From Glandiceps talaboti (lineage: Eukaryota; Hemichordata; Enteropneusta; Spengelidae), in contig NC_135564.1 of NCBI RefSeq assembly GCF_964340395.1, positions 14,204,012-14,268,011 on the forward strand: a stretch of 64,000 bases of DNA. The letters run 5' to 3'. The notes under the pieces are model-generated. The model searched no databases and had not been told where the DNA came from. It saw nothing but the letters and a program-made list of their open reading frames with translations. Shown here in pieces: positions 34,571 to 57,352 of this stretch; within the stretch, counting starts at the first letter, position 1; every line of letters begins with the position of its first letter. Made by a program: the position numbers and the translations under genes.

Positions 34571-35286
34571 TCTCTTTTTGGAGGATGTAGTGGCCCTGAA
34601 AAGGGCCTTTTGGTTTGAATCGTATGTTCTACACGGGTACTATGGTAGACATACAATTGTACTATTCTTCTTCGTCGTCGTCTGAGAAGAAAATATCTGC
34701 AAGGAGCTCTACAAGTTCGTCGTCAACCTCATTGTCTTCGTCATCCGACTGCAAGTCTTCATACACCAACTCATCCTCTGTACTGTCGAGACGATTTGAG
34801 ATACCGTACTTCAGAAACGACCGGGAAACTGTTACTGGACTGAGTTCCTCCCATGCCTTCATCACCCACCTCAACACGAGTTCTCTGCTTGGCGGTCTTC
34901 GTTTACCACTGGGGGTAAATTCGGCCTCACCATCCTTCATCCAGTCATCCCAGCAATCCTTCACCACATCCTTGACAGGCTTGTTGCAACCAACATCAAG
35001 CGGTTGAAGCAGTGGTGTCAAACCACCCGGGATAACTGCCACGTCGACATCTCGCGATCGGAGTTTTTTTTAAAATATTTTTTTTTTTTTTTGACATGGA
35101 CAGACCAGCTCGAACCGTAGTAAAAATTGAACTCACCTTTCTGATCGATGTACCCCTTCTCTTGAACTCTTACTCTGGTCACGCTTTCCCTTGAAAATTA
35201 CTGTTGGTATCACTTTACTGCCATCGGCTGCCACTGTCAGCACTGCCGTAAACCCCTTCTTCTCAGCCCCCGTAGTCTTGATATGT
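34571..35286 (-). pseudogene. Tigger-like transposase remnant, copy T1
   Basis: Minus strand. The 5' piece (35286-35135) reads KTTGAEKKGFTAVLTVAADG, then VIPTVIFKGKRDQ and, after a shift, VRVQEKGYIDQK|GTGAGT, a real-looking donor. A deleted middle is followed by DVAVIPGGLTPLLQPLDVGC (third catalytic Asp), NKPVKDVVKDCWDDWMKDGE and a very acidic tail ending EEE and TAG at 34662-34664. The N-terminal DNA-binding part is gone. Its 3' flank carries a histone-type stem-loop. The family is the same as T2 and T3, but not the intact pogo at 24.4 kb. Confidence 0.8.
34592..34607 (-). promoter_or_regulatory. Histone-type 3' stem-loop after Tigger T1
   Basis: On the transposase sense strand the sequence is CAAACCAAAA-GGCCCTTTTCAGGGCC-ACTACA. 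This is a 6-bp GGCCCT/AGGGCC stem with a four-base TTTC loop, A-rich 5' flank and ACYACA 3' flank, as in replication-dependent histone mRNAs. It begins 54 bases after the stop codon. CCAAAAAGAGA at 34571-34581, ten bases further on, looks like a histone downstream element that pairs with U7 snRNA. Confidence 0.75.
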
Positions 35287-35525
35287 CTTTCATTTGTGCA
35301 GTAGACCTATAGTGCGGCAGACAATGACATACAGTACAGACAGCAGATATATCCAGAAATACATATTAACCATTTTCTCTTCTAACTTTCTTCCGACCAA
35401 ATCTCTCAAACCACAATAGACAACTTTTAGCAATCCAATCATACTCCCAGAAATCTTCCATCGGCTCTTGTTGCTCTCAACAAGTCATGTATGTAGCAGA
35501 TTACAATGTAGAACAGTGTCAGTAG
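35287..35525. repeat. Dispersed repeat R1, partial copy
   Basis: Starts abruptly at the T1 Tigger remnant with TTTCATTTGTGCAGTAGACC and matches R1 at 34083-34320 to its end. The abrupt junction suggests recombination or insertion between repeats. Confidence 0.75.
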
Positions 35526-35635
35526 TGGGCAAGTGTATCGGGCATCCATGTTGTAGTCATGGACGGATTTGCAACTCATTAACTCTCCCTACATACATAT
35601 GACTCCAGGTGTTAAATTTGAATTCTCTTAACCAT

Positions 35636-37873
35636 CAGCCAGTCCGCAACACCCTCATTAACATATTAAAATGGGAAAAGTAATTTGAACAACGGGTCCG
35701 TTACGCTGGGCCCCGTACACAGTGCTTGAATTGGGTCACATTTTTCCCAATTTTCCGACGTTGATTGGCTTCGTTGTAGACCGTTCAAAGTAATCTGGTT
35801 GCTTGTATTAAAAGGTACGTATATCGAACTATATATTGATGGTTTTTTGTCCAGTTTTGATTTTTACATTTCGAGAAACCAAACGAATTTGAGAGCCATG
35901 AAAATTCACTCCGGCGTGACATGCCTCGCGAAATTCTTGAACTGAGTGTTACACAAGGATGTCACCGTAAACAAGCTGTATAGAATCAAAATATAGACCT
36001 GCATCATGCTTACCATGCAATGTGTAAACTTTCCGGTGCGTATTAGCAATGTTACGAAGGCTTGAATTTTGTTTATTTTTTGCATTGGTGACGCCATTTT
36101 CAGTGGAAAATATGGCGGGAGCACACATCGTGTACGATGTAACGCCTGAGTGAGGCGATCGGCGAACAAGCTTTCCCGTACTGAGATTAGCAAAAATGAC
36201 TTTGAACAACCCTTTTCGTGAACTAATCTTTACCTAGTACTTCAAAAATCACAAATATACGGCCAAATTATATGCACAATTCATGAAATTTTAGTTGTGT
36301 TTCAGAATTTGACCCGATCACATCGCGTCCGATGTCACATGCTTGCTAGTTATGCAATCCACTCGTGTATAGATACTCACACTCGTCATGTTGTTGAGCG
36401 GTGATCATCGCGTCGACAGTGACATTTCTGTTTAGTACACTTGAAATTGTCTTTTTCAATGGTGAAAACATGGTTTTTCTCTTTATTTTCAGATTCAATG
36501 CAAGACTACAACGCACTATACGATTTTTGCAGCTTCATTATTAGATTCTCTTTTCCAATTGGAAGTCGGGAATTTCTTAAAGTTGAATAAAAACAGTCCT
36601 GTGTGGACTTATACACGTTTATTTGTCTTTTCATGTTATGACAGTAATGTGGGTGTCGATTTAGCTATATTTCCCCGTCTTCATGTGTTTATCCTTCTCA
36701 CTTTCATCGGTCAGAAATTGCACAATTATATACTTATATTACGGTAAAAACTTACAACTTGAAGGTATATACAATTCTAACCATTCCAGCTTGAATGTAA
36801 CTCAAACTAGTTTACTAGCGGATGACTTTGGCCCTACTTGTACTTTTTTTTCATCATTCCATTGTATTTAAACCTTGTACTTGACATTTCACAATATTTA
36901 TAATTCTCAACAAAATACCTCAACATGTCTTACCTCGCTCGTACTCGAAGCAGTCCCGGTATAGATCACTGACATGACCAGAGAGAACCTTTTCGGATTT
37001 ACATGTAAAACGGGGAAAGATGCGGAAAACATAATGCAAAGTCTGAAGCCAAATTAAAGTTATAATTATTTTTACTTGCCAAATAGTTACATTTTGGAAA
37101 TGGCAAGACATGTTCACGTCTTTTACATGTAAACTGTCGGCCAATAAACAAAGTTTGGTCGATTGACAGTACGCACAGAGTCTCGGAGACTGGTCATGCA
37201 TAAGTTCAACCGCATGCCTAGGCGCTAGGCATGCCTTGCTTACGCGAGTTGTCTTCATTCTGGTTCACTGTCACTCCAAATTGCACGACAATATCGAATT
37301 AATCACAAGTTACATGTTATCTGAAAAAATCAAACTTTTATAGTGGGTCTGAAGTGTGATTTTAGTGAGTACTAAGAACTCCCGCGTTTCTGCTTGCTGT
37401 GGAAAATCGCCCGGTCAAACAAGGTCAGCTTCAACTTCCGGGTCAAATCAGTCGCTTTCGACCGAAAATTCTTGAACGAACCGTTACACAACGATCCTTC
37501 TAAATTTTCTTGCCATGGTTATTTAAAACACATAAAAACCCACCTTTTTGTGAAATTTGTAAACTTTCCGGTCCGTATTAAGGAAATTATGAGCGAAAAA
37601 CCGGGTCGAAATTTCAGGGCCTTAAGTATGCGTCCCGAATTCGTCGGAAAATCGGTATTCCTAAATGTAATTCCAAAATTTATTTTGCTGGCACGAAAGA
37701 AGAGATGTCAGTTGAGGTTTAGACGTTTACAGTATCTAAAATGGTGGACTCTAGGGAAAGTTACGGCGAGTTGAAAATACCCAAAAATAAGGCCCGTGAG
37801 CAGCCATTCAAAGTGTAACGGTCGCGATCTGAAGGATAGATTGTATGCAAATGAGGGTGTTGCGGACTGGCTG
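35636..37873. mobile_element. 2.2-kb non-autonomous TIR element
   Basis: Perfect 24-bp terminal inverted repeats start CAGCCAGTCCGCAACACCCT (35636) and close at 37873, flanked by CAT on both sides (a 3-bp duplication). Inside are two diverged direct repeats: GAAATTCTTGAACT...GTTACACAAGGAT near 35928 and GAAAATTCTTGAAC...GTTACACAACGAT near 37465, each followed by a GTAAACTTTCCGGT segment. There is no transposase. A 3-bp duplication and a CA...TG end would fit CACTA or Harbinger relatives. Confidence 0.7.
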
Positions 37874-38136
37874 CATAGCAGAAGTACAACCACTCTTGTC
37901 CTTTCATCAATTCATTTTGGAATGATGTTGACTGTCAGTGTTTGACTATGGGCTGTTGGGCTCTCAGAGTTGGACTGCCATTCTCTAGCTTGGTTTTCTA
38001 TATGTGATTCTCTTTGTTTGTTGGTGCTTGGTTTTCTTCAGTCTTCTTATGTTTACTGGATGTCATATACTTTAAAAGCAACAGTGTTCTCTCATGATGT
38101 TTAATTGAGTTAAGTTGAGTTAGAAGTGGTACTGCA
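37874..38136. other. Short unassigned gap
   Basis: Nothing recognised between the TIR element and repeat R2 copy 2. Confidence 0.4.
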
Positions 38137-38338
38137 CCACTTTTTTGGCTTGCATTTATACACGCAATATCTGTTGAAATTATGAATTCCTTACATCAAC
38201 TTCACAACATAATAAAGATGGCAACACTTGCTTACTCTAATGTTATTTTATCCACTCTTTCACACTCTCTGCCACTGTTACATAATTTTCACCACACTTC
38301 TGACTTGTCGCCAATAATGTAGCCAAGTAGATAAAAGC
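38137..38338. repeat. Dispersed repeat R2, copy 2
   Basis: Same-orientation copy of 33270-33480. The foldback element begins within ten bases of its right end. Confidence 0.8.
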
Positions 38339-38343
38339 GCTTA

Positions 38344-39103
38344 CCAGTCATAACGTCCCCGCGTCAAAACGTCCCCGGGTCAAAACGTCCCCGGGTATGA
38401 CCAAAACGTCCCCGGGTCAAAACGTCCCCGGGTCAAAAACGTCCCCGGGTCAAAACGTCCTCGGGTATGACCAAAATTTAACCAAGAGACTTGACTGTGT
38501 AACAGTTTCCGTTCCTTCCCTAAAACACGGTCACCTTTAGTACATCTTCTGTGTTGCCAACGTTGGCACACATCGCACTCCAAAGCCGGCTGATGTTTGG
38601 TGACTTCTAAACTGCACTTGACACACGGGAATTCAGGTTCTGCGAAACGGCGTTTGTTGATATGTCTGGTATTCATGATGATGATGATAGTGATGACGTT
38701 GAAAATTTCGTTTAGGAAGATAAGGTAAAGTTGCTCGCTTGTCGATAATTCGATACAAGTGTACGAAGGTATCGGTTTTGCGTAGATTTTTTATAGTTTG
38801 CGATTGGCAATCTCGTGATGCTTAGCCGATCCATGGGAGCCGCATAAACGTATTTTGGGCACCTGAGGTGGGTACGCAGTCACATTACTGTATTGTGATG
38901 TAAGAAATAGTAAGAAATAAGGATATAATGTAACACACACACACACACACTCACACACAAATAGTTTGGGTCGAGGAAAATGGAAAGACGGGGACGTTTT
39001 GACCCGGGGACGTGGGGACGTTTTGACCCGGGGACGTTTTGACCAGGGGACGTTTTGACTTATGGAAACCGGGGACGTTTTGACCCGGGGACGTTTTGAC
39101 TGG
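38344..39103. mobile_element. 760-bp foldback element with tandem-repeat ends
   Basis: The left end is a tandem array of the ~16-bp unit AAAACGTCCCCGGGTC (38344-38475). The right end is the same unit in reverse complement, GGGGACGTTTTGACCC (38980-39103). The outermost bases are CCAGTCA... and ...TGACTGG. The middle carries a minus-strand PHD-like coding fragment (38470-38676) and an (AC)n tract at 38931-38957. Flanking duplication is unclear. Long ends built of tandem units are typical of foldback-type, often MULE-related, elements. Confidence 0.7.
38470..38676 (-). pseudogene. N-terminal PHD-like finger fragment in the foldback element
   Basis: From ATG at 38676, MNTRHINKRRFAEPEFPCVK is followed by CSLEVTKHQPALECDVCQRWQHRRC. 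The CxxC...CDxCxxWxHxxC spacing is that of a PHD/treble-clef finger. After ~65 residues the frame runs into the terminal repeats and is meaningless. Such a finger opens several FLYWCH/MULE-type transposases in invertebrates, so this may be the stub of the element's own transposase rather than a captured host exon. Confidence 0.55.
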
Positions 39104-39995
39104 ATACCATAAAAGCATAGACAGTGGAGGGGCGACTTAAGTCATCATCAAGGGAAGTAATGTGTTCAACGGTCCTGCAGCAGAAGTTGACAATACCCCA
39201 TTGCCACGTCATAGAAGATAATATCATCTGTAGACCTACAAAGTCCATCCTGAATGACTAATGACTTCATTGTGTATACATATATAAGTTGTTACACACT
39301 ATGCAATCGTATACTGGAATAACAAAAAACGATTGGGTTGTGATTTTTATTTATGCTGTATGTCTCAAAAATAGCGTGCAGATATTTATGTACATATATT
39401 AGTGTGTTTATGAACTGTTAATATGTGCCATAGTCTAAACATTTCTTTCATTTTATCATTAGGAAGTGTGTGTGACAGTTTGTAAATTATTTTTGTGTGG
39501 TCGAGCTGTAAGAAGTACACCATAATGAGCATGCACACACATGCATATTATTATAGTAGTAATATTGATAAACCCTTTCATTGCCAGAGATTATATTGTG
39601 TATTTATCATAGTATGCAAACTAGATGACTTGAAGTGTGGATTGTGACAGTCAAGTTCTTATTAACGAGTGTACTACCAAAGTATATGGGGATATATGAT
39701 GAACAACAACTGGTATGAATGTTCTGCAAATATTTTATTCTGCATGAATATATATTTTCTGTAGAAGTAACTCTAATTTTTCAGTGTACTTTTAAATTAT
39801 TTAGAAGATTTACTCAAACAACAGCCAGTATTCAATCATACAACTCTACTGATTTATTTAAGTAATGGAAAACATCATAGGCATAAACATTCTGATAAAG
39901 TGTTTTTATTGACAATGTAGACTGTTATAAAAAAAGGGTCACACACAATTGACTTTCAAATTTTTCAAATAGTCTGTATTCAAAGAAAAGACAGT
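39104..39995. other. Stretch without recognisable genes
   Basis: AT-rich sequence. I see no coding region, RNA gene or inverted-repeat pair. Confidence 0.45.
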
Positions 39996-41007
39996 CTAGT
40001 TTTCGTGTAGTTGTTTCAGTTCCTTTCTAAGGGCTTTAGTACTCTGTTGTTTAAGTTGTTTCATTTTGAATTCCTGTAATAGATGACGAGCAGTGGAATG
40101 TCCCCTGATGTTCACCCACAACTTGGTATACATTGACATGAGTTGAAGTCCAGCATCCTCTTTCAAAGTGTCTGTTAATTCTGACCAATGTTGTAGATTC
40201 GCTCAGTCTGACATAACACTATCGATGACTAACTGACGAATATTACTAGGTTGACATTGAACCATATGGCTAGTATGTTTCCGAACAAAGAATTCTACTT
40301 GACGAAAGAATAAATACAACTTATCATTCACAAGGAAAAGACCACCCCTATTTTCAGAATTGACCCAGTGGGTTGTGTAGCTTAGAAATGATGATGCGTC
40401 TTGACTGGTTGCGTTCATACTCTTCAAACATTCAATCATGTGGCCAAATCTTGAACCACATCTGTCAAGCTGCTTCGAAAGGGCCATTGGTATGTGACCA
40501 CATGCATACCGCAGAACATTTTCTTCAATTACATCCATCTCTACTCTGTTATCAAACTTGTTAGATTCCACCTTTTCTAGCTTTGAAACCAATGCCTGAA
40601 ATATGTGTCTTGTCAATGCCATCAGCACTGGTAAAGTAACATCTAGTCCAGCCTTTGAGCACAAAGATTTCATAGATCTTCTCAACAATGGGCTTAGTCT
40701 AACCTGGTGAAATTTACAAAACATCTGTTCGCACTGTCAACCTTTGTCTGTCTCCACCTGTCACTGCAGGCCATAATACCACAATCACTTCTTTCATTTC
40801 ATCATGCAGCTCAAGGGCATTGACATGAAGTACATCATTCAGTGTCTTTGCTGTCTTCAATACTGTTTCAACACCAGGTGAAATGTTACTGTTGAAAAAA
40901 CTTTTTGACAAGATGACCTTCAGTGCTGACATAAATATGTTGGTAGAATCACTGACAGCTTGGTCCAAAGTCATATCAGGGAGTGGAAGTCCTGTCATAA
41001 AGAACAT
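39996..41007 (-). pseudogene. Unidentified multicopy-type protein gene with one frameshift and one in-frame TGA
   Basis: Minus strand. The first part (41007-40714) has LSKSFFNSNISPGVETVLKT and HDEMKEVIVVLWPAVTGGDR. A one-base shift at ~40715 leads to MFCKFHQVRLSPLLRRSMKS, then HTTHWVN-type SYTTHWVNSENRGGLFLVND and FFRQVEFFVRKHT. A TGA at 40203-40205 interrupts the frame, yet the same frame stays open for ~68 more codons with KLWVNIRGHSTARHLLQEFK and an STKALRKELK end. The RGGL...LF(F/A)...E layout followed by W(V/I)(N/K)IRG and KS/TKALRKxL resembles a repeated hypothetical family of marine invertebrates. Its function is unknown and it is possibly transposon-borne. It is most likely a young pseudogene. 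Confidence 0.55.
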
Positions 41008-41099
41008 AGGTATTTTGTTGTAATTGAAGTTATTTGTAGTTCATGATCAGATTTGAGAACTATTCTTTGTTAAGTACTTGAAAACATAAGTCACTGACC

Positions 41100-41475
41100 T
41101 GTAGGAAAACCAAACCTGTATAAAGTACCCACATGCACATGAAAGAGAAAAAAATAACATGTCATTTATCCCAACATAACAACAGGTAGGCATCACTTCA
41201 GGTATTCTCCAAGTCCGTCTTCGCAAGTCACACATGGCAGTCCTTACAATCACCTTTCATTTGTGCAGTAGACGTATAGAGCGGCAGACAATGACATACA
41301 GTACAGACAGCAGATATATCCAGAAATACATAACCATTTTCTCTTCTAGCTTTCTTCCAACCAAATCTCTCAAAACACAACAAACCACTTCTAGCAATCC
41401 AATCTTCCATCGGCTCTTGTTCCTCTCAACAAGTCACGTACGTAGCAGATTACAATGTAGAACAGTGTCAGTCGT
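41100..41475. repeat. Dispersed repeat R1, copy 3
   Basis: Matches 33936-34320 closely, including CATTTGTGCAGTAGACGTAT and the AGATATATCCAGAAATACAT segment, with a short deletion near 41400. Minus-strand frames are broken at different points than in copy 1. Confidence 0.75.
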
Positions 41476-42119
41476 GGGCAAGTGTATCGGGCATCCATGT
41501 TGTAGACATGTACGGATTTCGCGACTTTCACGATAACCAAAAATTGCAAAAATATGACGTTGCAGAAAATAATATTTTGATAGCGTTACATACAATGATA
41601 CCACACATGGAGCTTACTGACATCGTATCATGCACCACACACTCTCGTACACAAGAACATAACGTGTTGTACAGTTTTACTACATATCTATTTATTACAA
41701 AATCAACTTATATATTACACATGGAAATCCAATATCAATTGTAAATCTCTGAAAAGTAAAGAAAGAGTGATGTCGGCTGCTTTTGAGATGAACGATACCA
41801 TGCATGAACTCAGTTACATATGACACATAACCTGCACGGGTACTCCCGGGCTTTTGACAGCAAATTATTGAAAGGTAAAGAAATATTACTTAATAAATGT
41901 TATAATGTTAAATATTATACAGATTCCTGGGTAATGATATCAATAATTTACAATACTAGTATCCGTACCACTGGAATATGATAAGATAACTATGACGTGA
42001 CGGCAAATACAAATCCAAAATGGCAGCAAGTGTAAGTCACAACACTGCAAATATAACAAAATTTAATCAGTTCAATTGAGATCGGTAACTGGAGAAACAA
42101 GTCCTCATGAGTTCAGTGT
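41476..42119. other. Stretch without recognisable genes
   Basis: No supported feature. The open frame 41508-41744 on + has no recognisable domain. Confidence 0.4.
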
Positions 42120-42330
42120 CTAAATTTCGATACTTTCAATAACTGTCTTAATGGATGCCATTTCAAAGCCTTTGATGATAACACCCCAGTCACTTCGTAG
42201 TTTGTCGGAGGGAGAAAGAAACCAGTTCGCGCCTACTGTCTTTACTGTTGATAAACGAAGATAAACCGCTACCTCACCAATATCTACACCACTGTTGAGG
42301 GCCACTGCAACTTTACTGGCATACCACAGA
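42120..42330 (-). pseudogene. C-terminal fragment of a pogo transposase related to the 24-kb element
   Basis: The minus-strand frame LRLSTVKTVGANWFLSPSDK then LRSDWGVIIKGFEMASIKTV aligns position for position with the end of the intact transposase ([40 protein letters not shown]). The upstream part of the frame is repeat R3, so only the last ~60 residues remain. Confidence 0.75.
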
Positions 42331-42371
42331 AAAAATGGCAGAATTTGATCACATTGGGACGTTGGCTGGTG

Positions 42372-42665
42372 AAACAATAGTACTGGAGAGCACCTTATCA
42401 TGCCGGCTACTTTCTTTGAGTCCCCGTTTGGGGCCCTCTGGCAAAGTCCGGTGTGTGGAGATCCTTGTGATATGCATTCATTTTCATGTCATTTGCATAT
42501 CTTGCTAACCTTCGAAATTTAACTGTTGAACTTGCCAAACTGTGTTCCATTGCTTCCAAAACCAAACCTGTATAAAGTACCCACACGCACATGCACGAGA
42601 AAAAAATAACATGTCATTTATCCCAACATAACAACAGGTAGGCATCACTTCAGGTATTCTCCAAG
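42372..42665. repeat. Dispersed repeats R3 and R1, copy 2
   Basis: R3 (42372-42505) and the first ~110 bases of R1 (42555-42665) occur in the same order and orientation as at 33751-34050. This shows the two belong to one larger, worn repeat. Confidence 0.75.
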
Positions 42666-44600: not shown

Positions 44601-44619
44601 TTACGTTAATCAACAACTT

Positions 44620-46260
44620 GAAAGAGAAAACAAAAAAAAATAAGATTAATTGAAGTAAGAATAACTTGGGAAACCAGTACTAAACATTCATTTTTATTTC
44701 AAGAAAAATACATAAAACCCCCCAAAACAAGACTTCCTTGATATCTGCAATGTCTTTAGCGAGTTTGCTTTGGTTTCTAAGTACTGTTTTAATTTAAGAA
44801 GAAAAGTATAACTTACATTGACATGTGAACAAGGAAAAGTACAAAACAGAGCAATATGAGAACTACTCTATTAGCCACCATACTTCTGTGATCTGAAACT
44901 CTTGTTGTGTATTACGTTGGTTTAGGAACTTCGTTTCTAGTTCACTCAATATTGATAGCTTACATACCAACCATATGCAAAGCTAGTGAAACTGCAGACC
45001 TACGACTACCTTCAACAAATGAGGAACTATATCAAAGGATATATTTCTCGGATCACACTTGCTACATTCAAGGTCAATCTTCACACCACAACCCAGACCA
45101 ATCAAATGGACCTTTACAGGAACCAATTTCCCTGGACACAAGAAATTGAAAAAAAGAATTATTAATTTGTATACATGTTTCCTTGTATATTTCTTTCAAT
45201 ATCCAGCATCTTTTTTGTCAAAATTGGGTCATGTAAGAAAAGCACAATTACAATGGTTGGTAAACATATTTGAAATATCAAGGCCGCACACGCATGGCTG
45301 TGAATTAGTATCACGAAATACTTCTGATTGGCCCATGTCAATATTGATCATGTAAATGCATTGTACATTGTCTTACCAGTATCACATGGTGACGCGATGA
45401 CTGAGAATTCAGTGTGCGTTTTACCTCCACTGTCTGTGATTGAAGTATAACCCCACGCTATAACGTAAGTTTACATACTTCTTAGTGCATATTTCTAAGT
45501 AAAAATATGTTGCATAATTTAGAAGTCTTGGAGAGTGTATTAGTCGGACGTACAGCGTCATATGAAGACTGATACAAATAAAGTATTTGAGGGCTTGCAC
45601 AACAAATCTGTACTTTTTTTTACTTTTGCAGAAAAACAGAAAAACATTTTTCCACCAATACTTATTGTAGTAATAAGTTTACATTTGAAAAATTCTTTCA
45701 TATTTTCAAAACAAAATAGGAATTTTACTCACTAAGAGTTACACTCTTCTCAGGTTGATCACTGCCTAATAAATGCCTTTTGTTGGGAGAAGGCAAGTAG
45801 CCGGAGTCAGGTGTGGACGAGAATTGATCAATAGGTGACATTGGAGGTCGTTTCATTTCCTTAGCAAGATTGAAACGTAGACTAACACAAGGTTGTTTCC
45901 AAAATGCGGAACTTGTACTGGGTTGCGGACTTTCACTGCCAGAGCATGTAGATGTACTGGTACCGTTAAATCTGTATTTATAGCCGCGGCTTTAATAATT
46001 TGTTTGCAACATATTATCAACAAAACAAACTTCAAAGTCGAGGTGCATCTTTAATAATGACTTTTTACCGGTTAAAAAAAATGTAAACAAGAATTTCAAC
46101 GAAATTTAACTAGGTCATGAACCAAATGTCATTAATGTTTCACTGTAACGAATCATTTAAAAAAAAAATTAAAACGTGGTAAGATGTTGGCAATATGCAT
46201 AACATGTAACATTATTTTTTGTGTATAATCGGGGCTTGTTGTGGTTTATGGTATACTCTA
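44620..46260. other. Long stretch without recognisable genes
   Basis: Short open frames on both strands (for example 44907-45149 on +, 45853-46035 on -) show no domain. A T-rich patch lies near 45612-45625. No inverted-repeat pair was noticed. Confidence 0.4.
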
Positions 46261-46261
46261 T

Positions 46262-47882
46262 TTGGAGGATGTGGTGGCCCTGAAAAGGGCCATTTTGTTT
46301 TGGTACTATCAGATCATAGACTCAGATTTACGCAAATCTAAGAAATTGTCGTCCTCTTCTACATCGCTGTCGAATATGTCTGCTATTCTTTCCGCAAGTT
46401 CATCGCTTTCTAAATCTTCATACAGGAGATCGTCTTCAGTTCTGTTGAGATTGTTGGAGATGCCACACTTAAGGAACGAGCGGTGAACGATGGACCAGTG
46501 ATAAGTCGTTCCAGACAGATAACACCCACCGCACTACCATTTCTCTACTTGAGGGTTTCCTCTTGCCAGGAGCTGTGAACTCTGCCTCGCCATCCTTCAT
46601 CCAATCATCCCAACTATCACGAACTGACACCAACATCGAGTAGCTGGAGTAACGGAGTCAACCCACCAGGAATCACTGCTACATTGACGTTGCGGGACCT
46701 TAGATCTTCTTTGACAGCCTTTGTTAAATGGACGGAACATGAATCCCACACACGCAATCTTCGTTTATTGCTGTCAAGGCGAGGGAAATGCTGACGTATG
46801 TAATCAAGACAACCTGAAACAAATGAGGAAACAATGTCGGTGTATCTAGGTATGCAGTGCTCGTACTTCGTTCATGGCATGCATAGAGAGCATGCTGACA
46901 TGGTGTAAATAAAACATCATCAACCTTCTCTCCATTCATTGGTCATAACATCCAAGGAAAATATGTCATGGCCCAGTAAACTTAATCAATCCATATGTGC
47001 ATGCATGACATCATTTTCACATAAATTATGCAAATATTTTGTTTACTCGGTTCCTATTCAAACTTTTGCAATAAACATGATAAAAGTTATCTGTAAATTA
47101 TCGTAACTTTTTCATCAATGTAACCCTTTTCTTGGACTCTAACTCGTATTTTACTTGGGATGGATAAATGACTTGTCCCTCTTTCCTTTGAATATAACGA
47201 TGGGTAACTGTTTTGCCCCATCGGCAGACACGGTGAACACGGCTGTGAAACCTTTCTTCTCGGAACCTGTTGTTTTGATGTGAACTGTTCTCGAACCGAT
47301 ACGATCGAGAGTGTGGTTTCCTGGCATGTCGAAACGAAGTGGGGTTTCGTCCATATTGTAAATATCAGACAGGTGGCACTTGTGTTTCTCTCTCAACTGG
47401 ATGACGAACCGATGGAATGCAACCATTTTCTCTTCAAAGTCCTTTAGTAACTTCTGTCCTATTGACGTTTGTTGATGAGTTGACAAAGCATGGCGACGTT
47501 TAAAACTTTGCAACCAACCATCCGGCACCTTGAATGATGAAGTGTTACCACTTGACATCCTCAGTGCCTGATGTTGGAGTTGCTTACCTGTCACCCCATT
47601 TCCATTTTTACGTTGGGTATCAATCAAGTTCATACGTTGATTGTCTAAATTGTTGTCTTTTACTGGTCTGCCAGCACCCTGGAGACATTTTGCGTTCTTT
47701 GAAGTGACGAGTTCATCCTTCTTCTTCAACCAATCTCGTACTTGTTTTTTGTTCAATCTGAAGTACTCGGCAGTCTTACGATTACTACCCAACTCAGCAA
47801 CATTCGCGATTACTCTCAGCTTGAATGATGTATCATAAGCCATGTGGCGACAACAGGAACATGGACGATTTTCTGTAGGCAT
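46262..47882 (-). pseudogene. Tigger-like transposase, most complete copy T2
   Basis: Minus strand from ATG at 47882. The N-terminal HTH region (YDTSFKLRVIANVAELGSNR, TAEYFRLNKKQVRDWLKKKD) is followed by a second CENP-B-like HTH (GVTGKQLQHQAL...SFKVPDGWLQSFKRRHALS). The catalytic start is DIYNMDETPLRFDMPG (first Asp), then EKKGFTAVFTVSADGAKQLP. A one-base shift at ~47155 follows, then IRVRVQEKGYIDEK and an intron-like gap. The next exon starts at 46813 (GCLDYIRQHFPRLDSNKRRL, RVWDSCSVHLTKAVKEDLRS: second Asp), then NVAVIPGGLTPLLQLLDVGV (third Asp). A further shift leads to WDDWMKDGEAEFTAPGKRKP and an acidic tail with a stop at 46309-46311. It is inactive, and a histone-type stem-loop follows. 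Confidence 0.85.
46276..46291 (-). promoter_or_regulatory. Histone-type 3' stem-loop after Tigger T2
   Basis: The sense strand reads CAAAATGGCCCTTTTCAGGG then CCACCACATCCTCC, with a perfect 6-bp stem and TTTC loop. The ACCACA flank is the histone cleavage context, and CCAAATAGAGTA follows in the downstream-element position. It lies 17 bases beyond the (probably displaced) stop codon. Confidence 0.75.
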
Positions 47883-48539
47883 GTTGCTAGATACTAGATA
47901 GTCGATACGTAATAGAGTTTTCGAATAGTTATCGTAATACTAGAGAAGGAATGGTTTCATCAGTGAAATTTCTCAGAATTTATTAGAAAGCTGTGCATTT
48001 CATTATCACATTTTATATTATTTTTCTTTTAAACTTATGAGTGTACAAGCGTACATCCTCGTGTTGGTAAACACGGTGAGAAGTGCACATTGTTTTTTTC
48101 TAAATAGTAGAGCAGGAGGTGTTTCGTTGTCGGCAAAGTGTATGTAAAATCACATTGATGACTGAAAATGTGTCAATCGTTTAGTGAAAAACTATTACAG
48201 ACTGTAAATGGTCGGCTTATTCCCTTTGAAATAACCATCAAAGAACCGAGATAGAGCAGTCATTGTATTATTTTCAATCATGTCGAATATTGCATCGAGT
48301 CATGTACTTCTAAGTTCAATCACGATAGTGTAGTAAGGCCTTTTTGAAAGCAACGATTTGATGGTTGACGTCATGGACTTGCAATGTTTGAAAGGTTAGA
48401 GAGCGTAAGTTCATCATCCTCGTTCACAACCATATTTTTCTGAAAATCAAAATTGTGCCATATTTTGGATTGGTTTGGTCTACGATGTTTGATATGTTGG
48501 TGATGTGAGCGATGATATTGACCGGCGGAATGACTCTCC
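47883..48539. other. Stretch without recognisable genes
   Basis: No supported coding sequence. The left Tigger T2 inverted repeat should lie here but was not identified. Confidence 0.4.
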
Positions 48540-49692: not shown

Positions 49693-49699
49693 AATATTA

Positions 49700-50106
49700 A
49701 AAGTATGCATAGTTTAGCCGGTTTACCTAAATCCTTCCTTCAATGAAAGTTACAAAGTGGTTGTTGTGTCCCTGGCTAGGAATTGGTGCTTGAAGACCCT
49801 TCTCTCATAAGAAAGCAACAGCCTCAGTCGCGATAACTGGATTCGCAGAACAGTGGTTGCAGCCCTCTTCATGACCCTTACAAAAGACGACAGTGCTGAT
49901 GCGCTTATCCACATGATGTATCAACAATTTTAACTCTTTCTTCACATCTTCATTCTCAGATCTGTCGGGCACCTGCTTTCTGAATAAGATGATGTATTCT
50001 GTTGTAGTCATGGTACAATCGCGACATCTCTCATACATCGTCGATACCGGAAATACATAGTGTTCCACATCTTGCCAATACCTACACAATATCTCCATTG
50101 CAAGAC
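49700..50106 (-). pseudogene. Probable 3' exon of D-D-E family copy 4
   Basis: Begins at a TTATTCAACAG acceptor (50106): MEILCRYWQDVEHYVFPVST, MYERCRDCTMTTTEYIILFR, then CKGHEEGCNHCSANPVIATE with four clustered Cys/His that could bind zinc. A TGA follows AVAFL (near 49805). The same frame resumes with EKGLQAPIPSQGHNNHFVTF before a final stop. The preceding exon (51.5-50.44 kb) ends in a donor, so the two probably form one transcript. Confidence 0.5.
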
Positions 50107-50437
50107 CTGTTGAATAATAATGATAATTGAATGATATTATATAATAATAATTTCAATGATAACGTCAATTGAAAAACGAATAATTTAACGCAAGACTCTG
50201 TAGAGGAGAATATTTCATGCAAATTATCTGACTTTAAGGCAGTGGATGATTTGTTGTTGCTACATTTAGTTTTGATTTCACCAAAGTTTATGCGGAACTC
50301 ATAAATATAATTATATATTTTTTAATCTGGATATATAAATATCCGTAAGTAAGCATTATACCACGATACATTTTTGAGACTGTTAATATTAGAAATCATA
50401 CTATCTTACCTCATCCCTTAAAACAAAATCTACTGAC

Positions 50438-51556
50438 CTTTATTTCCTTCAGTTGTTTTTGTTGTTGTGTCAAGCTATTCCGCTGGGCATAAGGAGATGA
50501 GTCCTCACCATGCAGTCTGTCAGGAAGTGTCACACTTGCCAATTTCTTTGATAGCATTGCCCATCCTATTTCTACCATGTTATATGCGCTGTACCCAGGG
50601 CAGAATGATGCAAGAATCAGGACGTCTAAATTGAGATCTCGCCACATTCACATGGAGTTTTGTTGTGTAGTTTACGTTGAAGTCAGATCCCCATCGAGTA
50701 CACCACAGACAACTGGTTTGCATTTGTCTCTTCTAATGGCCTCCAAGTCTGTTATGTGGGCAATAACATTGCAAGGCTTTCTGGACCACTTCTTGGGAAA
50801 TTGAAATGTTCATGACTGAGGTCATCTGTCGACATCTTGGCATCATCGTCTTTTCTTTGCAACAGTAGGTAGCCAGCTGGCGTAATTAAATAGCCTGGGT
50901 TCGAGAAGTCATGGTCTGGAAGGTCTGGCGCATCCCTGATAAGAGAGTAACGAGTGTTCTGATGATATCTAGAAATGGCTATAACATCAACTTTCACTTT
51001 GTTCATGTTGTCACACGAGATAGCTAGTCCTGAACCTTGAAATTGAAATAATGAAGCTGATTTGAAGCGGTTTTTTTGGGTGCAACCATCCATCTTCCCA
51101 TCGTAGCCACACTGACACCTTTCTGCTTGAGTTCTGGATCGCTATTATCGAGACATTCTTGCATTTGTTTTCGGGTGACTCCACAGTTACCAGTTGTTTC
51201 TCGTCGTCTTTGATGGGCCTTGAAACTGTTACTCTCTTAATAGTCACTGTCCTCATTAGTTAGGTGCTTCTGGAATGCCTCCAACTTTTTCCTGTTCTTG
51301 ATGCCATGTGGGTTTGTGAATCTATCCTGCAAAACCTGTTCTTCTAAGAAGAGGTAGGCTGATGCCACACTGTCATGGTAACCAACCTGGAAGGTGTTCA
51401 AGACACCTAGGAAGGTTACAAACCCTTCCCAGATGTCTTGTACTTGGCACAGGGCCTTCCCTTCCAGGTTGACAAACATGGAATCTTCATTCAACACAAT
51501 AAAAACCGATCTTTTCTTTGATTTCTTCGCAGCATATGTCATGCTTTCACCCATCC
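50438..51556 (-). pseudogene. Copy 4 of the unassigned D-D-E family, most complete catalytic part
   Basis: Begins at a TTTGAATAG acceptor: GESMTYAAKKSKKRSVFIVL, NLEGKALCQVQDIWEGFVTF. A TAA at ~51239 is followed in the same frame by ESNSFKAHQRRRETTGNCGV and the HTH-like TRKQMQECLDNSDPELKQKG then VSVATMGRWMVAP. After a frameshift, FQGSGLAISCDNMNKVKVDV (first Asp), DHDFSNPGYLITPAGYLLLQ, HITDLEAIRRDKCKPVVCGV-LDGGSDFN (second Asp, one base deleted), then CPGYSAYNMVEIGWAMLSKK (Glu), LASVTLPDRLHGEDSSPYAQ and a donor at 50438 (AAAG|GTCAGT). The D-D-E order and spacing suggest an RNase-H-fold transposase. Three or more disabling changes make this copy dead. Confidence 0.6.
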
Positions 51557-52338
51557 TATTCAAATAGAAATAAAATACTAGATTTATAATCATAATAAAC
51601 ATCAAATAGAAAGATCCAATATTTTATCTTATTACAACTCGATGTTCTTACAGAAGCTGTCATTGGTCAGAATGAAATCATATGAATCTGTAAGTCTGTG
51701 TGTTCAAAATTAAGGTTGAAAAGAATCGAGTAAAAACAAAGATCACCCTCTGTGTATTCATTTCTGATCACTGAAATTGATGACATGGCGTCAACTTTCG
51801 AAACCACTACTATCATCGATGTGTCTCCCTGTACATGATGCAGATTTTTTTTCAAATATAATACAAGGGCAACCATTACTTGAAATAATATTTTAAGTGC
51901 AAAATTACATTAGAATAGATTATTTCGTTTATGCACCTGCTTGTAATGATGATAATATAATAATAATAAACTTCATTGTAACCTTATCTATATTTCCAGA
52001 TATCAATACAATACAATACAATACAATAAAGTATCAAGAAAATAGCTTGTATTGACCACACACACTAAAAAAATAAATTTCACAATGTGAAAATCAACAC
52101 AGCATATTGTTATATAGATAGTAATGAGCCTCTGAGGCCAGATGTAATCAGAAAAGTAGTAAATGTCTTTGTCGAATGTATATCACGATGCAGCTGGTAT
52201 ATTTTTGTTCAAATGATATTCTCGAGTTTTGAATCCGTGTTGAATAAATTTGCTTATTTCAAGTAATGTATTTTTGTCGTTTACTTTAAGAATCTTTATG
52301 AGATTCTCATTATCCGTGCTTGTACCAGAAAATATTAT
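51557..52338. other. Stretch without recognised genes; (AATAC)n at 52008-52030
   Basis: A short AATAC pentanucleotide run is present. The minus-strand frame 51667-51876 has no domain I recognise. Confidence 0.4.
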
Positions 52339-52752
52339 TTAATTTGTTAGTATATCAGGTGCCATCCCACTTCGTCGCTTATAAATGTGAAACTGCACAT
52401 AGGCTGTTGCGAGGACCACTGGCTCCAAACAAATGGCTGATAAATCTTGAACTTCGGTTATACATTTCACACTTTCCATTTGTCCAGCAATCACATCCAT
52501 TTCATAGCAACAGCTGCATTCCTTTGCTTTAGGCATGACTTTGCAATTAGCACACGTGCACCATGATGTACCGGTCCATTATGAAAGATCACCAATTGCC
52601 ACCAGCTTACTTTCTCTACCTGAGATTGATGCATCAGATTCACTCTCAGTATCGTAGTCTGTGGAATTTTCGTCTGGATGGTCACTGTCATCATACTCTG
52701 GCTCAAAATTGTACCCAATGATGGTATCCGTCCCTTCCATTTCAAACGCCAT
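52339..52752 (-). pseudogene. P2X7-ballast-like cytosolic domain gene with one in-frame stop
   Basis: From ATG at 52752: MAFEMEGTDTIIGYNFEPEY, an Asp/Ser-rich acidic linker, then a TAA at ~52579. The same frame goes on: WCTCANCKVMPKAKECSCCY, EMDVIAGQMESVKCITEVQD, LSAICLEPVVLATAYVQFHI, stop at 52339. The WCxCxxC...ECxCC...CIT...(V/L)CL...VL.TAY layout is that of the Cys-rich C-terminal ballast of P2X7 receptors, which occurs as free-standing multicopy genes in many invertebrates. There is no P2X channel part. A splice acceptor (TGTATGTAG) lies just upstream, so an extra 5' exon is possible. The stop makes it a likely pseudogene. Confidence 0.6.
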
Positions 52753-53004
52753 AACGTTCTGATAGCCTACATACATTTGCAAATGTTGAGAAGCAGGTGC
52801 TGGCTAAGTTGTTACGTATACTTGCGTAGATTCCCATTGGCTGTAGTTGGATACACAGGATATATACAAAGAATTTCAAGAAGACGTATCTTTTCATTGA
52901 TAACATTTTACATTAATTTATTTACATTATACATATTTACAATAGTCGGTAATGTGACATACATATTATTATAAAGTACTGTAATAATGGAACATTATAA
53001 CATT

Positions 53005-53175
53005 CAAGTTTCCTTTCGTTTTAATTTCACCGTTTCACCAAAACGACTGATATGTTGCCTAATTAGTTCTTCCTTTAGAGGTTTCTGTTTCTTTGCGACA
53101 TTCTTCGGAAGTTTGACGCGATCTGCATCAACATTTGACCTGACGGAATCTGCTTTTCTTTGTATTACCTTTTAT
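53005..53175 (-). other. Possible 3' exon, basic peptide
   Basis: After an acceptor (AATAATAAAAG) the minus strand encodes IQRKADSVRSNVDADRVKLP, KNVAKKQKPLKEELIRQHIS and a Lys/Arg-rich end before TGA. No family is recognised. It may be the tail of a protein whose other exons lie at higher coordinates. Confidence 0.3.
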
Positions 53176-53181
53176 TATTAG

Positions 53182-53740
53182 ATACAAATAATAATATGTT
53201 TTACCTTCATACCCATTTACCACCGGCTTGTGTGATACACAGTGTAACCTGCCAAAATTATGCCAGTGGGAGACAAAAAATACAATAACCCCTGTCCTGT
53301 TTTGATGATGGAATGCATCAACGATTTCATACTAGCAAGCAGAATAACTTAATATGTTCCTTGCATAAGTCATCGTGACCCAAGGAGGACAATTATAGAA
53401 ACTATGACTTGACATACACAATTAAAACCTAACAGAAAAGAAAGTAAATGCTTACATGTGGCGTCTGTGGTGCATTTTTATCAGTCAGTCCAGGGTACTG
53501 TTGGACTAACTGTTTTCCCTGTCATTTCAATTTCAACAGATGTAGGAAATCTGTCTTGTTCCATTGTAGTAGCCATCATGATTGAAATTTGGTCTTGTAT
53601 AAGGGCATTGACCGTCAAGTCCTCAATTCATGGCACATAAACCCTACAAAACGCATGGTGTATCTATTAAATATGACAATAGCCTGGAATAAATAGTTTA
53701 GATTGAAAGTGTTTTTCAAACAATTAAATCTTGCTCTCTT
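53182..53740. other. Stretch without recognisable genes
   Basis: No supported feature up to the Tc1-like copy A boundary near GTGAATGTTCCTAACGTC (53758). Confidence 0.4.
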
Positions 53741-53757
53741 TGCTGCAACATTGTCAC

Positions 53758-54776
53758 GTGAATGTTCCTAACGTCCCGAAGGATAGCCACCCAGTTCGAT
53801 CACTTTCGGCATTGTTGAGTAAAGTTGGTCTATTTGGAAATTGCAAGTATCTGCGTCTAGGTGATCCCAAAACTTCAGTACAGTTGTTTCCAATTCTTCC
53901 AGTTTCTTGGCTTGGCTTTATTTTTTGAGTATTCTTTCATCCGGTTCCATATATTTTCTATTGGGTTCAAATCAGGGGATTCTGGGGGAAATGGGAACAC
54001 ATCGATCTCGTTATCTTCGAAGAAGGCTTTAGTGATATTTGCTGTTTGGGCTGGCACAGAATCCTGTTGGAATCGAGCACCCTCAGGGAAATACCTTCTC
54101 ACAAATGGCACGAAACTTTCTGTCAGGATAGATTCTGTGTAGAATACAGCATCGACTGTGCAATTGAAAGTAACCAGATGACCTCTCCCTTTTCTTGATA
54201 TGGAAGCCCATACATTTAATTTCGCAGGATGCTTTGGTCGCGGTTTCTTTGGATTCGGCTCTCCTCTCAGACGGTACTGGTAAGTGCCATACTGCTCTAG
54301 GGAAATTGTCATCTCGTCCGACCAAATGATGTCGTTGAATGTTTCTTTGGAGTTTATTATCCGAATGCACCAGGCTACCTGCTTCTCTCTGTTAACTTAG
54401 CGCACCATATGACCATACTGTGTCTTCGAACGGACCCAGTTCATGCCCGATCTAGCCATTCTGACTGTTCTGCCATTTCCACATTAAATTCATTCTTGAT
54501 CTTTTCGTTTAGCTTTCTTGACGTCAACTCGCGATCTTCCAACATTTTCTGGTGAATAAATTCCTTCACTTTGCCTGTTGCCTTGCGTGGCCTACCTGTT
54601 CTTGGACGGCCAGTTATGGTACCAGTCTGGCGGTATTTCTTAAGAAGTTTACCAACAGAATGTTCGCTGACGATTACTCGCTCTTGTAAGCGGAGCATTT
54701 TCTCAATCTTCATGACTCCATGGCTGTTATTATGCCAGTCGACTACCTTCTGTCGATGGTTTAGACTTAGTCTCAT
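53758..54776 (-). pseudogene. Tc1-like transposase copy A
   Basis: Minus strand from ATG at 54776: MRLSLNHRQKVVDWHNNSHG (first HTH), RVIVSEHSVGKLLKKYRQTG then TITGRPRTGRPRKATGKVKE (second, paired-like HTH with GRPR linker). After frameshifts near 54450 and 54330 comes the catalytic part: IIWSDEMTISLEQYGTYQYR (first Asp), HPAKLNVWASISRKGRGHLV, FQQDSVPAQTANITKAFFED (second Asp), FPPESPDLNPIENIWNRMKE (Glu; DD34E spacing typical of Tc1). Two shifts make it inactive. It abuts LINE sequence at its 5' side. Confidence 0.85.
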
Positions 54777-54829
54777 GATGGCAAGTAGGTTACTCGTATG
54801 TGCTCTGAAAATACTTGCGAAACATGTCT

Positions 54830-55090
54830 GCCATATCATCCATGGACATCGACGAACACTGAGAATCATTATAACATAAAGTTGAGGGAAAAGATGAACA
54901 TTTACGTTTAGACTTTACAAATGACCAAAATTGTTTCGAATTATGAACAATTGACTCTCCTGGATATCATTTGAAAACTCCACCACATAAGTAGCACATT
55001 GCAGCTCTTTAAATTGAGCATGTAGATTTGGGAAAATTCTGTAATCAAAATGCTTACCCGTACGTTTAAAGCAAGAATGTTGTGAATCTT
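54830..55090 (-). mobile_element. LINE ORF2 fragment (pre-RT region), copy A
   Basis: Minus-strand reading: HSCFKRTGKHFDYRIFPNLH, AQFKELQCATYVVEFSNDIQ, NSKQFWSFVKSKRKCSSFPS, MSMDDMADMFRKYFQSI. The FW(S/K)(F/Y)(V/I)KSKR signature lies between endonuclease and RT in jockey/CR1-type LINEs. The Tc1 copy joins directly after YFQSI, and the same junction is found at 61.47 kb. The Tc1 therefore inserted into this LINE before the block was duplicated. Confidence 0.7.
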
Positions 55091-55217
55091 TGAAGCTTAG
55101 GAAAGATATCCTGTTAGGGACTAATTATGAGCCATTGTTGCTACCGCCTGTGTTGTTAATTATCATTTTTACAGGACTATAATGATTGTAATTATTGCAG
55201 AAGCACAATTGACTAAC

Positions 55218-55427
55218 CTTGCATGCCCTGTTCTTGGGATGGAGATACTGGATTTTGTTCAGGCTGGCTGGCGCTTTCGTCTGCTTGGTCACTGCTGTGA
55301 TCACCTATAAGACACAATAATATATATACTTACATTGCAGAGACTGGAGTGCACTGAGCAAACTTGTATGTTGATCCTTAATCTTTCTATTTTCCTCTTT
55401 CAAAATTTGAATATCCTTCTTTAGTTC
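55218..55427 (-). pseudogene. Coiled-coil exon and acidic exon of an NRF1-like multicopy gene
   Basis: Two minus-strand exons with good splice sites and matching phase. 55427-55334 encodes ELKKDIQILKEENRKIKDQH then TSLLSALQSLQ (coiled coil). 55304-55218 encodes DHSSDQADESASQPEQNPVS then PSQEQGMQ (acidic, Gln-rich). The second exon is repeated almost exactly at 62062-61976, where the exon before it is a WWP/NRF1-like one. This fits alternative or shuffled 5' exons in one repeated gene family. Confidence 0.5.
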
Positions 55428-55689
55428 CTGTAAATGACAAATGATTTCATTCACAAATTTAAACAATAAAGTATAGTGCAATGAATGGATAAAAAACATG
55501 CAGATGGTAATTTCCATCACCAGATTTACGAAAACATATGCTGTCATGATTTCCTTACTGATATCCTAACTGAATGTTAAGTAAATTGAAAAATAATTGC
55601 ACGAGAGTAAATGAGTTGGAAATATCATGTGATATTATACTTGTGATCATTCGAAAGCTTTTGAGAAATCGGTGTAAATGATGTCAACT

Positions 55690-56060
55690 TGAGCACCTGA
55701 AGAAACAAACGCGGTAAGAAAATCTGAGTATGCAACAAGAGCAGTGGCTGTCGTCAGAATAATTGTAAATGGCTTTGTGAACTAAGCCCTCAAAAATCTT
55801 ACTGAAAAGTGGCAAAAGAGAGATTGGTTGATAATTTGTAACGTCATTCCTGGACCCATACTTAAAAATACGACATTAGCAGTTTTGAGAATTGACGGAA
55901 AACATCCGGAGCTGATGGACTTAGATAATGTAAAGTAGATAATATAACTCATCTGCACACTGTAGTGATATTGTGGCAGGAATTTTGTCTGGGCCACATG
56001 CCTTGTTGCAATTGACAGCCTTCAATGCCTTAATAGAAACTTCGTCAACTGTGAAATGTA
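55690..56060 (-). mobile_element. LINE reverse-transcriptase N-terminal fragment
   Basis: Minus-strand pieces in two frames: KALKAVNCNKACGPDKIPAT then ISLQCAD, and SISSGCFPSILKTANVVFLS then a GMTLQIINQSLF/NDVTNYQPISLLPLFSKIFE-type stretch. GPDKIP and NYRPISLLP are the standard RT entry motifs of jockey/CR1 LINEs. At least one frameshift is present. Its position relative to the pre-RT fragment at 54.8-55.1 kb shows they are separate insertions or rearranged. Confidence 0.65.
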
Positions 56061-56297
56061 ACTTACCGTTAAAGTCATATTATAAGTCACGGCTTATGTT
56101 ACAATGTTGCAAAATAAAGAACCAATTTTTTTCTGGGGTGCGACTTATAATATAGACTGTTTAATTTTTCCAAATGTGGATGTGGTATAAATTCACCCGA
56201 ACTCTCAGTTATGGAGAAATGGACGTCTGTAACACAATATGAAAACTTTATTATGAAGTTTCAAAGTGTAAGAACGAAATTAGTGTGATTTTTGGTA

Positions 56298-57352
56298 TCT
56301 CTTTTTGGAGGATGTGTTGGCCCTGAAAAAGGGCTGTTTGACTCGGTGTACAGTATCACTACTATACTGCACCGTACTCACGACTAAGTTACTCGTCATG
56401 TTCATCTATATCCGAATCAAAGATGTCAGCAATACGGTCCGCCAGATCTTTGTGTATCTCAGACTCATCATTGGTATCTAAATCATCGTAGATGAGGTCA
56501 TCTTCTGTCCTGTCTGGATGATTTGAAATTCCGCATTTAAAAAACGAACGTCTCACCGTTGATGGACTAAGATCTTCCCATGCTGACAGCACCCACTGTA
56601 ACATCATCTCCCTACTTGAACATCTTCTCTTCCCACTTAGCGTGTACTCTGCCTCTCCGTTCTTCATCCAGTCGTCCCACAGGTCTTTTAATGAGTCTTA
56701 CTGGCTTATTACACCCACCATCCAGTGGCTGGAGGAGAGGGGTAAGACCGCCAGGAATGACAGTAACATTGATGTTATGGTCACGCAACTCGTCTTTCAC
56801 TCATTCCGTACCCTACAGGAATCCCAAACTAGTAGACGCCACCGATCTTCAGTCAGTCTTGGGAATATTCTCCTGATGTACTTACTGCAGCAATGAATAG
56901 TAGAAACACAATGATGTCAGATATTTGGAAAAAATATAGGTTGAAAGTAGACTGAAAGATTTGGCGGTATAAATCAGTGTTTGGGTTGATTGCAGAGAGT
57001 GCCAAATTCAAATAGATTCTCTCATTCTAAGTTGAAAGGTGAACTGCGTTCATGAACTCGTACACAAATTTAAATGATTGTCAAACGACTATTGGCCGAT
57101 ACGCATGTGATGTCATGAAACGTCACGGAACATTAGCATATGCGATGTAAGGCCCAATGAGAACACGTCGATGTAAACAACTCCATACTTTGCTAGCGTG
57201 ATCACAGCTGAACAGAATGGTACATGAAACACGTTATAAATTAAAACTCGCCTTTTTCAGCAATATATCCTTTCTCTTGAACTCGAACTCTTAGCTTCTC
57301 TGGTATCGATAGGTGACTCTGATCCCTCTTCCCCTTGAAAATGATGGTTCGT
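56298..57352 (-). pseudogene. Tigger-like transposase remnant, copy T3
   Basis: Minus strand. The 5' exon piece (57352-57250) reads TIIFKGKRDQSHLSIPEKLR, VRVQEKGYIAEK. After an intron-like gap it continues at ~56885 (YIRRIFPRLTEDRWRLLVWD, then SCRV: second Asp), NVTVIPGGLTPLLQPLDGGC and, after a frameshift, MKNGEAEYTLSGKRRCSSRE, MMLQWVLSAWEDLSPSTVRR, with an acidic tail ending HDE and a stop at 56389. The 5' side is cut sharply at 57352, where Tc1-like copy B begins. Intron position and tail match T1 and T2. Confidence 0.8.
56319..56335 (-). promoter_or_regulatory. Histone-type 3' stem-loop after Tigger T3 (worn)
   Basis: The sense strand reads AAACAGCCCTTTTTCAGGGC then CAACACATCCTCCAAAAAGA. 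Compared with T1 and T2 the loop has one extra T and the outermost stem pair is changed. It starts 53 bases after the stop, almost the same spacing as T1. The CCAAAAAGAGATA downstream element is preserved. Confidence 0.65.

Follow-up and report, generated by a model that had tools for sequence, protein, structure and literature searches.

Histone-type stem-loops and downstream elements behind Tigger-like transposase genes in the hemichordate Glandiceps talaboti

In a stretch of 64,000 nucleotides from the genome of Glandiceps talaboti (NCBI RefSeq assembly GCF_964340395.1, contig NC_135564.1, positions 14,204,012 to 14,268,011; hereafter called the window), three copies of a transposase gene, T1, T2, and T3, are each followed by a stem-loop of the kind that ends replication-dependent histone genes. 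Judging from their sequence, T1–T3 probably represent a pogo/Tigger cut-and-paste family, the transposase gene of which ends in the histone 3'-end module of the host and would be cleaved with the help of stem-loop binding protein (SLBP) and the U7 small nuclear RNA (snRNA) into a non-polyadenylated, S-phase mRNA; several other mobile or dispersed families in this genome have an ending of the same kind. This reading is supported by the near identity of the module with that of the host histone genes, its place past the stop codon, its conservation in diverged copies, and its location within the element, apart from the terminal inverted repeats (TIRs).

Stem-loops of the Tigger-like genes

An earlier note on this DNA had described stem-loops on the sense strand of three Tigger-like transposase genes, and the observation is real. 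In a pattern search of the window, the sequence GGCCCTTTTCAGGGCC was found exactly at T1 and T2 and, with two mismatches, in a worn form at T3 (56319–56334), in every case in the same sense as the transposase genes, which run on the minus strand. When up to three mismatches were allowed, the window contained three matches to GGCCCTTTTCAGGGCC against 0.15 expected, and none of 100 shuffles reached three; furthermore, in the assembly of 590 Mb and 47 contigs to which the window belongs, the exact stem occurs at 200 places and a reversed control pattern at none. With these numbers, a chance hairpin was ruled out for the exact stem. The looser histone consensus, GGYYCTTYTNARRRCC, stayed at chance level when searched with up to two mismatches (five matches in the window against 2.88 expected, and as many in 12 of 100 shuffles), and its perfect matches in the window were those at T1 and T2 only. 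In the search with the Rfam family Histone3 (RF00032), T1 scored over the gathering score of 34 bits (E-value, 2.4e-7), T2 fell 0.3 bits under it (E-value, 6e-6), and T3 was not reported at E-values up to 0.5.

The hairpin has the 6-bp stem and the 4-nt loop of the histone consensus, and around it an A-rich 5' flank, an ACCA-type 3' flank, and a purine element with an AAAGAG core are arranged as the note had described for histone genes. Also in agreement with the note, the stem follows the stop codon by 54 nt in T1 and by 53–54 nt in T3, while that of T2 lies 17 bases beyond the present stop, which is itself shifted. The assignment to Tigger-like transposases is borne out by matches of T2 exon 1 to HTH_Tnp_Tc5 and BrkDBD and, in another copy in the assembly (L078), of DDE_1 as well. 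All three copies in the window are decayed: T1 is without exon 1, T2 has damage in its frame and in splicing with a broken donor, and a Tc1-like copy splits T3.

We then looked at how well the block of stem and downstream element is kept among relatives, which were sought by protein with the last exon of T1, the stem being no selection criterion. The 20 matches obtained fall at 14 separate places. The block (36 nt) is present with zero to three mismatches at all 10 places with at least 58% identity (T1, T2, T3, and seven more), and nothing similar was found within approximately 1.5 kb at the four distant places (32–39% identity). The stem is exact in seven of the 10 close copies; in L027, L028, and T3, an A stands at the first G of the stem, breaking a pair. 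When the 3' parts of the 10 copies are aligned, the highest-scoring window of 48 columns is the block, with a mean pairwise identity of 0.90, as compared with 0.11–0.46 in windows of 25 columns up to 75 columns away in both directions; coding windows of the same alignment mostly show 0.4–0.7, and the 3' tip of the element reaches up to 0.67. Between Tigger subfamilies, the block is 83–97% identical and the coding sequence is approximately 64–77% identical. Neither the flanks nor the coding sequence of Tigger is conserved nearly as well as the block.

L078 looks complete: it is 2,665 bp long, has a perfect TIR of 25 bp (TACCGTTAAAG...) with TA at both ends, and encodes HTH_Tnp_Tc5 and DDE_1, all of which are features of pogo/Tigger. 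Its stem is 52 nt past the stop codon and begins 282 bp short of the 3' end of the element. A block near the 3' end and inside the element could be read as a site for transposase binding or as part of a terminal repeat that happens to look like a histone hairpin, but this runs against the evidence and is highly improbable; the TIRs are separate from the block (282 bp away in Tigger and approximately 690 bp in the TTAA element described below), and the host histone genes end with nearly the same sequence. Pairing of the motif with the other end of the element, which the note had named as a possible refutation, is excluded for L078, because the stem lies outside the TIR and no inverted copy of the block exists in this element (the best candidate has 29 mismatches of 56).

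The same module in host histone genes and other families

Among the 200 exact stems, 40 places, first by coordinate, were read (L001–L020 and L071–L090), and histone genes account for six of them (H4 and H1 once each, H2A and H2B twice each). Together with two more histone loci that were read (H4 and H2B), eight loci (two H4, three H2B, two H2A, and one H1) end with AAACCAAAC, the stem, and ACCACATCCTCCAAAAAGAGAACTACC or a sequence near it. The histone genes read in the host have, almost letter for letter, the stem, the A-rich flank, and the downstream element of the Tigger-like genes. The purine core of the downstream element in mouse H2a is also AAAGAG, which pairs with CUCUUU of U7, according to the available part of the source (PMC7026596).

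The common animal form of the histone stem, GGCTCTTTTCAGAGCC, is found at 20 places in the assembly and is thus ten times rarer than the exact stem, so that the stem of the transposons matches the form that is frequent in this host. Sixteen of the 20 GGCTCTTTTCAGAGCC stems are on one contig (C18:13949843–22315050). Histone-fold proteins gave 110 matches in all, 86 of which are within the range of the listed exact stems, and in 25 of these 86, an exact GGCCC stem lies no more than 260 nt away. The host also has an SLBP gene, as PF15247 was matched twice in neighboring positions on C16 (E-values, 8.2e-11 and 3.4e-6).

Histone genes are not the only owners of the exact stem. In a ledger of 100 listed stems of the 200, 27 belong to histone genes by protein, and 23 with a histone-fold match at most 7 kb away are presumed to be histone genes (one that was read is H4). 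Another 38 are in mobile or dispersed families: 18 in an element with TTAA targets, 14 in genes with a HIRAN domain, three in a THAP/DDE_Tnp_4 transposase, two in P2X7_C-type genes, and one in Tigger. Two stems (L009 and L071) have no histone flanks, and two and eight more fall outside all of these classes. The 40 places read divide similarly into 14 of the TTAA element, 11 of HIRAN type (nine by frame or alignment; L079 and L080 solely through 3' homology to L089), two THAP/DDE_Tnp_4, two P2X7_C-type, one Tigger, the six histone genes, and four outside them (L002, L084, L009, and L071). In the copies that allowed a clean measurement (the frames of some others are damaged), the stem follows the stop codon by 29–31 nt in histone genes, 52–54 nt in Tigger, 40 nt in the TTAA element, 20–43 nt in HIRAN genes, and 21 nt in THAP/DDE_Tnp_4; an exception is a P2X7_C-type gene (L072) with 144 nt.

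Since the list of exact stems selects for stems, only protein searches bear on conservation in these families. For the TTAA element, which is Kolobok-like in its targets, all 17 copies with at least 95% identity coincide with a listed exact stem, and none was present in one decayed copy (76%) and five relatives at 27–38%. A paralogue of its protein with 52–54% identity coincides with a Histone3 match in 10 of 11 cases (75 candidates were scored). Ten minus-strand copies of this paralogue, nine with a Histone3 match, extend over 3.5 Mb at C20:3975413–7445505. In the HIRAN protein search, which gave 21 matches overall, nine of the 10 matches within the listed range have the stem. All three close copies of THAP/DDE_Tnp_4 have it as well (two being in one duplicated stretch of 4 kb), and it was found in none of 19 relatives with 59% identity or less.

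As to their structure, the TTAA element has an inverted repeat (AGGCCCGTAT/ATACGGGCCT) and encodes a Cys-rich protein of 189 amino acids, which has no Pfam match above the cut-off and resembles P2X7_C by eye only. Its 5' end was seen in eight of 14 copies, each after TTAA, and its 3' end in nine of 14, although the search pattern for the latter itself includes TTAA. The TTAA targets and the short TIR are shared with Kolobok, from which the element differs in that no transposase was recognized in the fetched copies of approximately 2.0–2.9 kb. At C7:12018253–12018555, the protein lies inside an open frame of 1772 amino acids, perhaps an autonomous element. Terminal repeats and target duplications were sought and not found in the HIRAN and P2X7_C sets, and their mobility is hence not proved; we count both as dispersed families with putative mobility. 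L079 and L080, which are 99.7% identical over 4 kb, have a reverse-transcriptase-like frame abutting the 3' part of the HIRAN-type gene with its stem. In L084 (3501–3516), the exact stem is followed by a different purine element, ACTACATCACAATGCACGAAAGAATG, and the frames upstream are without identification. The stems of L009 and L071 are in a separate repeat (71% mutual identity) and are a chance or unrelated hairpin.

The likeness of the block to histone genes is strong over positions +16 to +36, but less strong or mixed both at –24 to –4 and at +36 to +56 (p values here are uncorrected for the large number of rows); two HIRAN groups, HIRAN-a and HIRAN-b, score lower at +16 to +36 because they are one base shorter. 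In L093, a TTAA-element paralogue, GCATACACAAACCAAAC stands directly upstream of the stem as it also does in H2A and H2B genes, and 14 of 20 letters match at –24 to –4 (p ~1.5e-4). Capture of the block from some host histone gene is likely from these comparisons. A captured piece might simply be carried along by each element without being used. Histone hairpins do occur in the non-coding Tm1-HH elements of Meloidogyne (PMC3169594, in its available part), and the TTAA-element copies (approximately 92–99% identical) are too alike to prove selection; nonetheless, such a passive passenger is disfavored and has only a slim chance of being the right explanation, given that the block of Tigger outlasts its coding sequence and near flanks that hardly align, that the block is retained in TTAA paralogues only half identical in protein, and that four unrelated families have it a short distance after the stop codon.

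Processing, splicing, and polyadenylation

Replication-dependent histone mRNAs are regarded as the special class of animal mRNAs without poly(A). In the mechanism that we propose, each family would have captured the histone 3'-end module from host histone genes and acquired an SLBP-type stem-loop together with a U7-type downstream element, in which CTCCAAAAAGAGA would pair with U7. Cleavage directed by U7 at 4–5 nt after the stem would leave an mRNA that lacks poly(A) and is stable in S phase, and the supply of transposase would be tied to S phase or to germ cells, eggs, and early embryos rich in SLBP. From what is established on histone mRNA, a supply during replication would suit a cut-and-paste element. 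In its widest form, this proposal would have three or more DNA transposons of unrelated kinds in the lineage of this animal (Tigger with DDE_1, THAP/DDE_Tnp_4, and the Kolobok-like TTAA element) and the dispersed HIRAN genes each capturing the module and running their proteins through SLBP and U7, by which transposition would be tied to replication, and in Tigger a competition between splicing and cleavage could decide whether transposase or a truncated repressor is made; we consider the chances of this wider version to be about even.

Several results weigh against histone-type processing or against its origin as proposed here. First, an intron is conserved in the Tigger gene, with good GT...AG junctions in L078, L022, L024, and L027 (the donor also in L025), and the gene thereby departs from the intronless state of histone-type genes. 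Inclusion of an intron prevents stem-loop-dependent 3' processing, as stated with reference to earlier work in the available text of a paper on H2B (PMC3661734), and the conserved intron hence argues against simple histone-type processing of Tigger. Second, all five TTAA-element copies checked and every one of the 10 Tigger copies have AATAAA or ATTAAA beyond the stem, so that polyadenylation is possible; such hexamers are also within 300 nt in three of four host histone loci checked. Third, no compensatory changes in the stem were seen among the 10 close Tigger copies, 61 of the 86 histone-fold matches given above are without the exact stem, and five of the 10 Tigger copies have p > 0.05 for likeness to histone genes at –24 to –4.

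U7 snRNA, furthermore, was not identified in the assembly by Rfam RF00066 or by two patterns. The RF00066 search gave no match with its control silent too, which does not imply absence, and the two patterns, built on a consensus of the Sm site, stayed at control level (48 matches against 46 in the control and 40 against 44). Folding of the DNA after 30 of the 48 matches to the first pattern gave no convincing U7 hairpin by eye. A sequence at C1:26138243, CTTTTTGGAAATTTCTCTTG, is U7-like in look.

The intron and the hexamers can be combined into another explanation, in which the module of Tigger would be a selected switch: spliced, polyadenylated RNA would give the full transposase, and unspliced RNA processed at the stem in S phase would give a truncated protein of the HTH and the start of DDE, which might serve as a repressor of transposition. 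Indeed, exon 1 of L078 is open into the intron and carries HTH_Tnp_Tc5, the intron is conserved and the poly(A) signals are present in all 10 copies as given above, and splicing and stem-loop processing are reported to be mutually exclusive in human histone genes (PMC3661734). The proteins of HIRAN genes and of the TTAA element are, however, single open frames, which would make the switch special to Tigger, and poly(A) hexamers arise by chance in AT-rich DNA. We regard the switch as unlikely, while leaving it a small share of credence. The adoption of histone-type processing with a link to S phase, which the earlier note had put forward, is thus supported in part: the presence of the same module in host histone genes and in all 10 close copies, its location outside the TIRs, and the SLBP gene are in its favor, the conserved intron speaks against simple processing of the Tigger gene, and transcripts that end at the stem, lack poly(A), and are linked to S phase are predicted.

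Precedents, significance, and features of the window

The 3' ends described here resemble those of replication-dependent histone genes (RF00032) in the stem, the loop, the flanks, the AAAGAG element, and the position shortly past the stop codon, and differ from them in that they are on transposase or mobile-family genes, of which Tigger has an intron. Among the pogo/Tigger elements of the Tc1/mariner superfamily, with which T1–T3 share HTH_Tnp_Tc5, DDE_1, the TA target, and the TIR, the histone-type 3' end is the distinguishing feature, and we know of no described Tigger that has one.

The author of the note knew of no transposon described in this way. This is right only in part and does not hold for the bare idea, because a histone hairpin is carried by Tm1-HH, DNA transposons of the Mutator/Foldback type in the Meloidogyne incognita group (Gross and Williamson 2011; PMC3169594). 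In the available part of that paper, in which no U7 element is compared, the authors suggest that the hairpin may be a captured host sequence and leave open whether it is under selection, and Tm1-HH are described as non-autonomous elements without coding potential, having composite Foldback-type TIRs and 9-bp target duplications. The elements examined here, in contrast, have simple TIRs, TA or TTAA targets, and coding genes, and their hairpins, which are conserved in diverged copies, come after protein-coding genes of several families without relation to one another, whereas Tm1-HH are non-coding and belong to a single superfamily. Tm1-HH was the only precedent noticed in open-licence PMC papers; as far as these go, therefore, what appears to be new, and what remains of the claim, is a hairpin with a downstream element directly after transposase genes, conserved in diverged copies and shared in the host form by several unrelated families.

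If the proposed processing is true, transposons would gain a ready route to expression in S phase, oocytes, and early embryos, and RNA-seq with poly(A) selection would miss such transcripts. As an experiment of nature, it would also test to what extent the stem and the downstream element alone can confer the histone pathway, because unrelated genes, even one with an intron, stand in place of the histone gene body.

Table 1. Features of the Tigger-like copies in the window (positions in the window)
Feature	Position	Strand	Remark
T1 histone-type stem-loop GGCCCTTTTCAGGGCC	34592..34607	-	pattern match; RF00032 37.5 bits
T1 downstream element ACTACATCCTCCAAAAAGAG, histone downstream element-like, core AAAGAG	34572..34591	-	as in host histone genes
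T1 conserved 56-nt block	34561..34616	-	91% identity to T2; aligned coding sequence 68%
T1 open frame of the last exon, stop included (exon 5' limit not fixed)	34662..35069	-	remaining transposase gene decayed
T2 histone-type stem-loop	46276..46291	-	pattern match; RF00032 33.7 bits, below 34-bit cut-off
T2 downstream element ACCACATCCTCCAAATAGAG	46256..46275	-	
T2 exon 2, C-terminal part of DDE, frame damage	46309..46813	-	
T2 exon 1, HTH_Tnp_Tc5, BrkDBD, and start of DDE	47107..47882	-	
T2 intron at conserved family position	46814..47106	-	donor mutated in T2
T3 worn stem AGCCCTTTTTCAGGGCC	56319..56335	-	
T3 downstream element AACACATCCTCCAAAAAGAG	56299..56318	-	
T3 last exon, frame-shifted, with stop	56389..56800	-	
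Tc1/mariner-like copy interrupting T3 upstream	57357..58012	-	

Elsewhere in the window, an open frame of 477 amino acids on the minus strand (24353–25786) is transposase-like by eye and has no Histone3 match nearby in the same search that also missed T3. A frame of 253 amino acids at 17271–18032 presumably resembles a cap methyltransferase of the CMTR2 type. Three related Tc1/mariner-like copies, approximately 90–95% identical, are located at 53758–54684, 57357–58799, and 63283–63906, one of which is inside T3.

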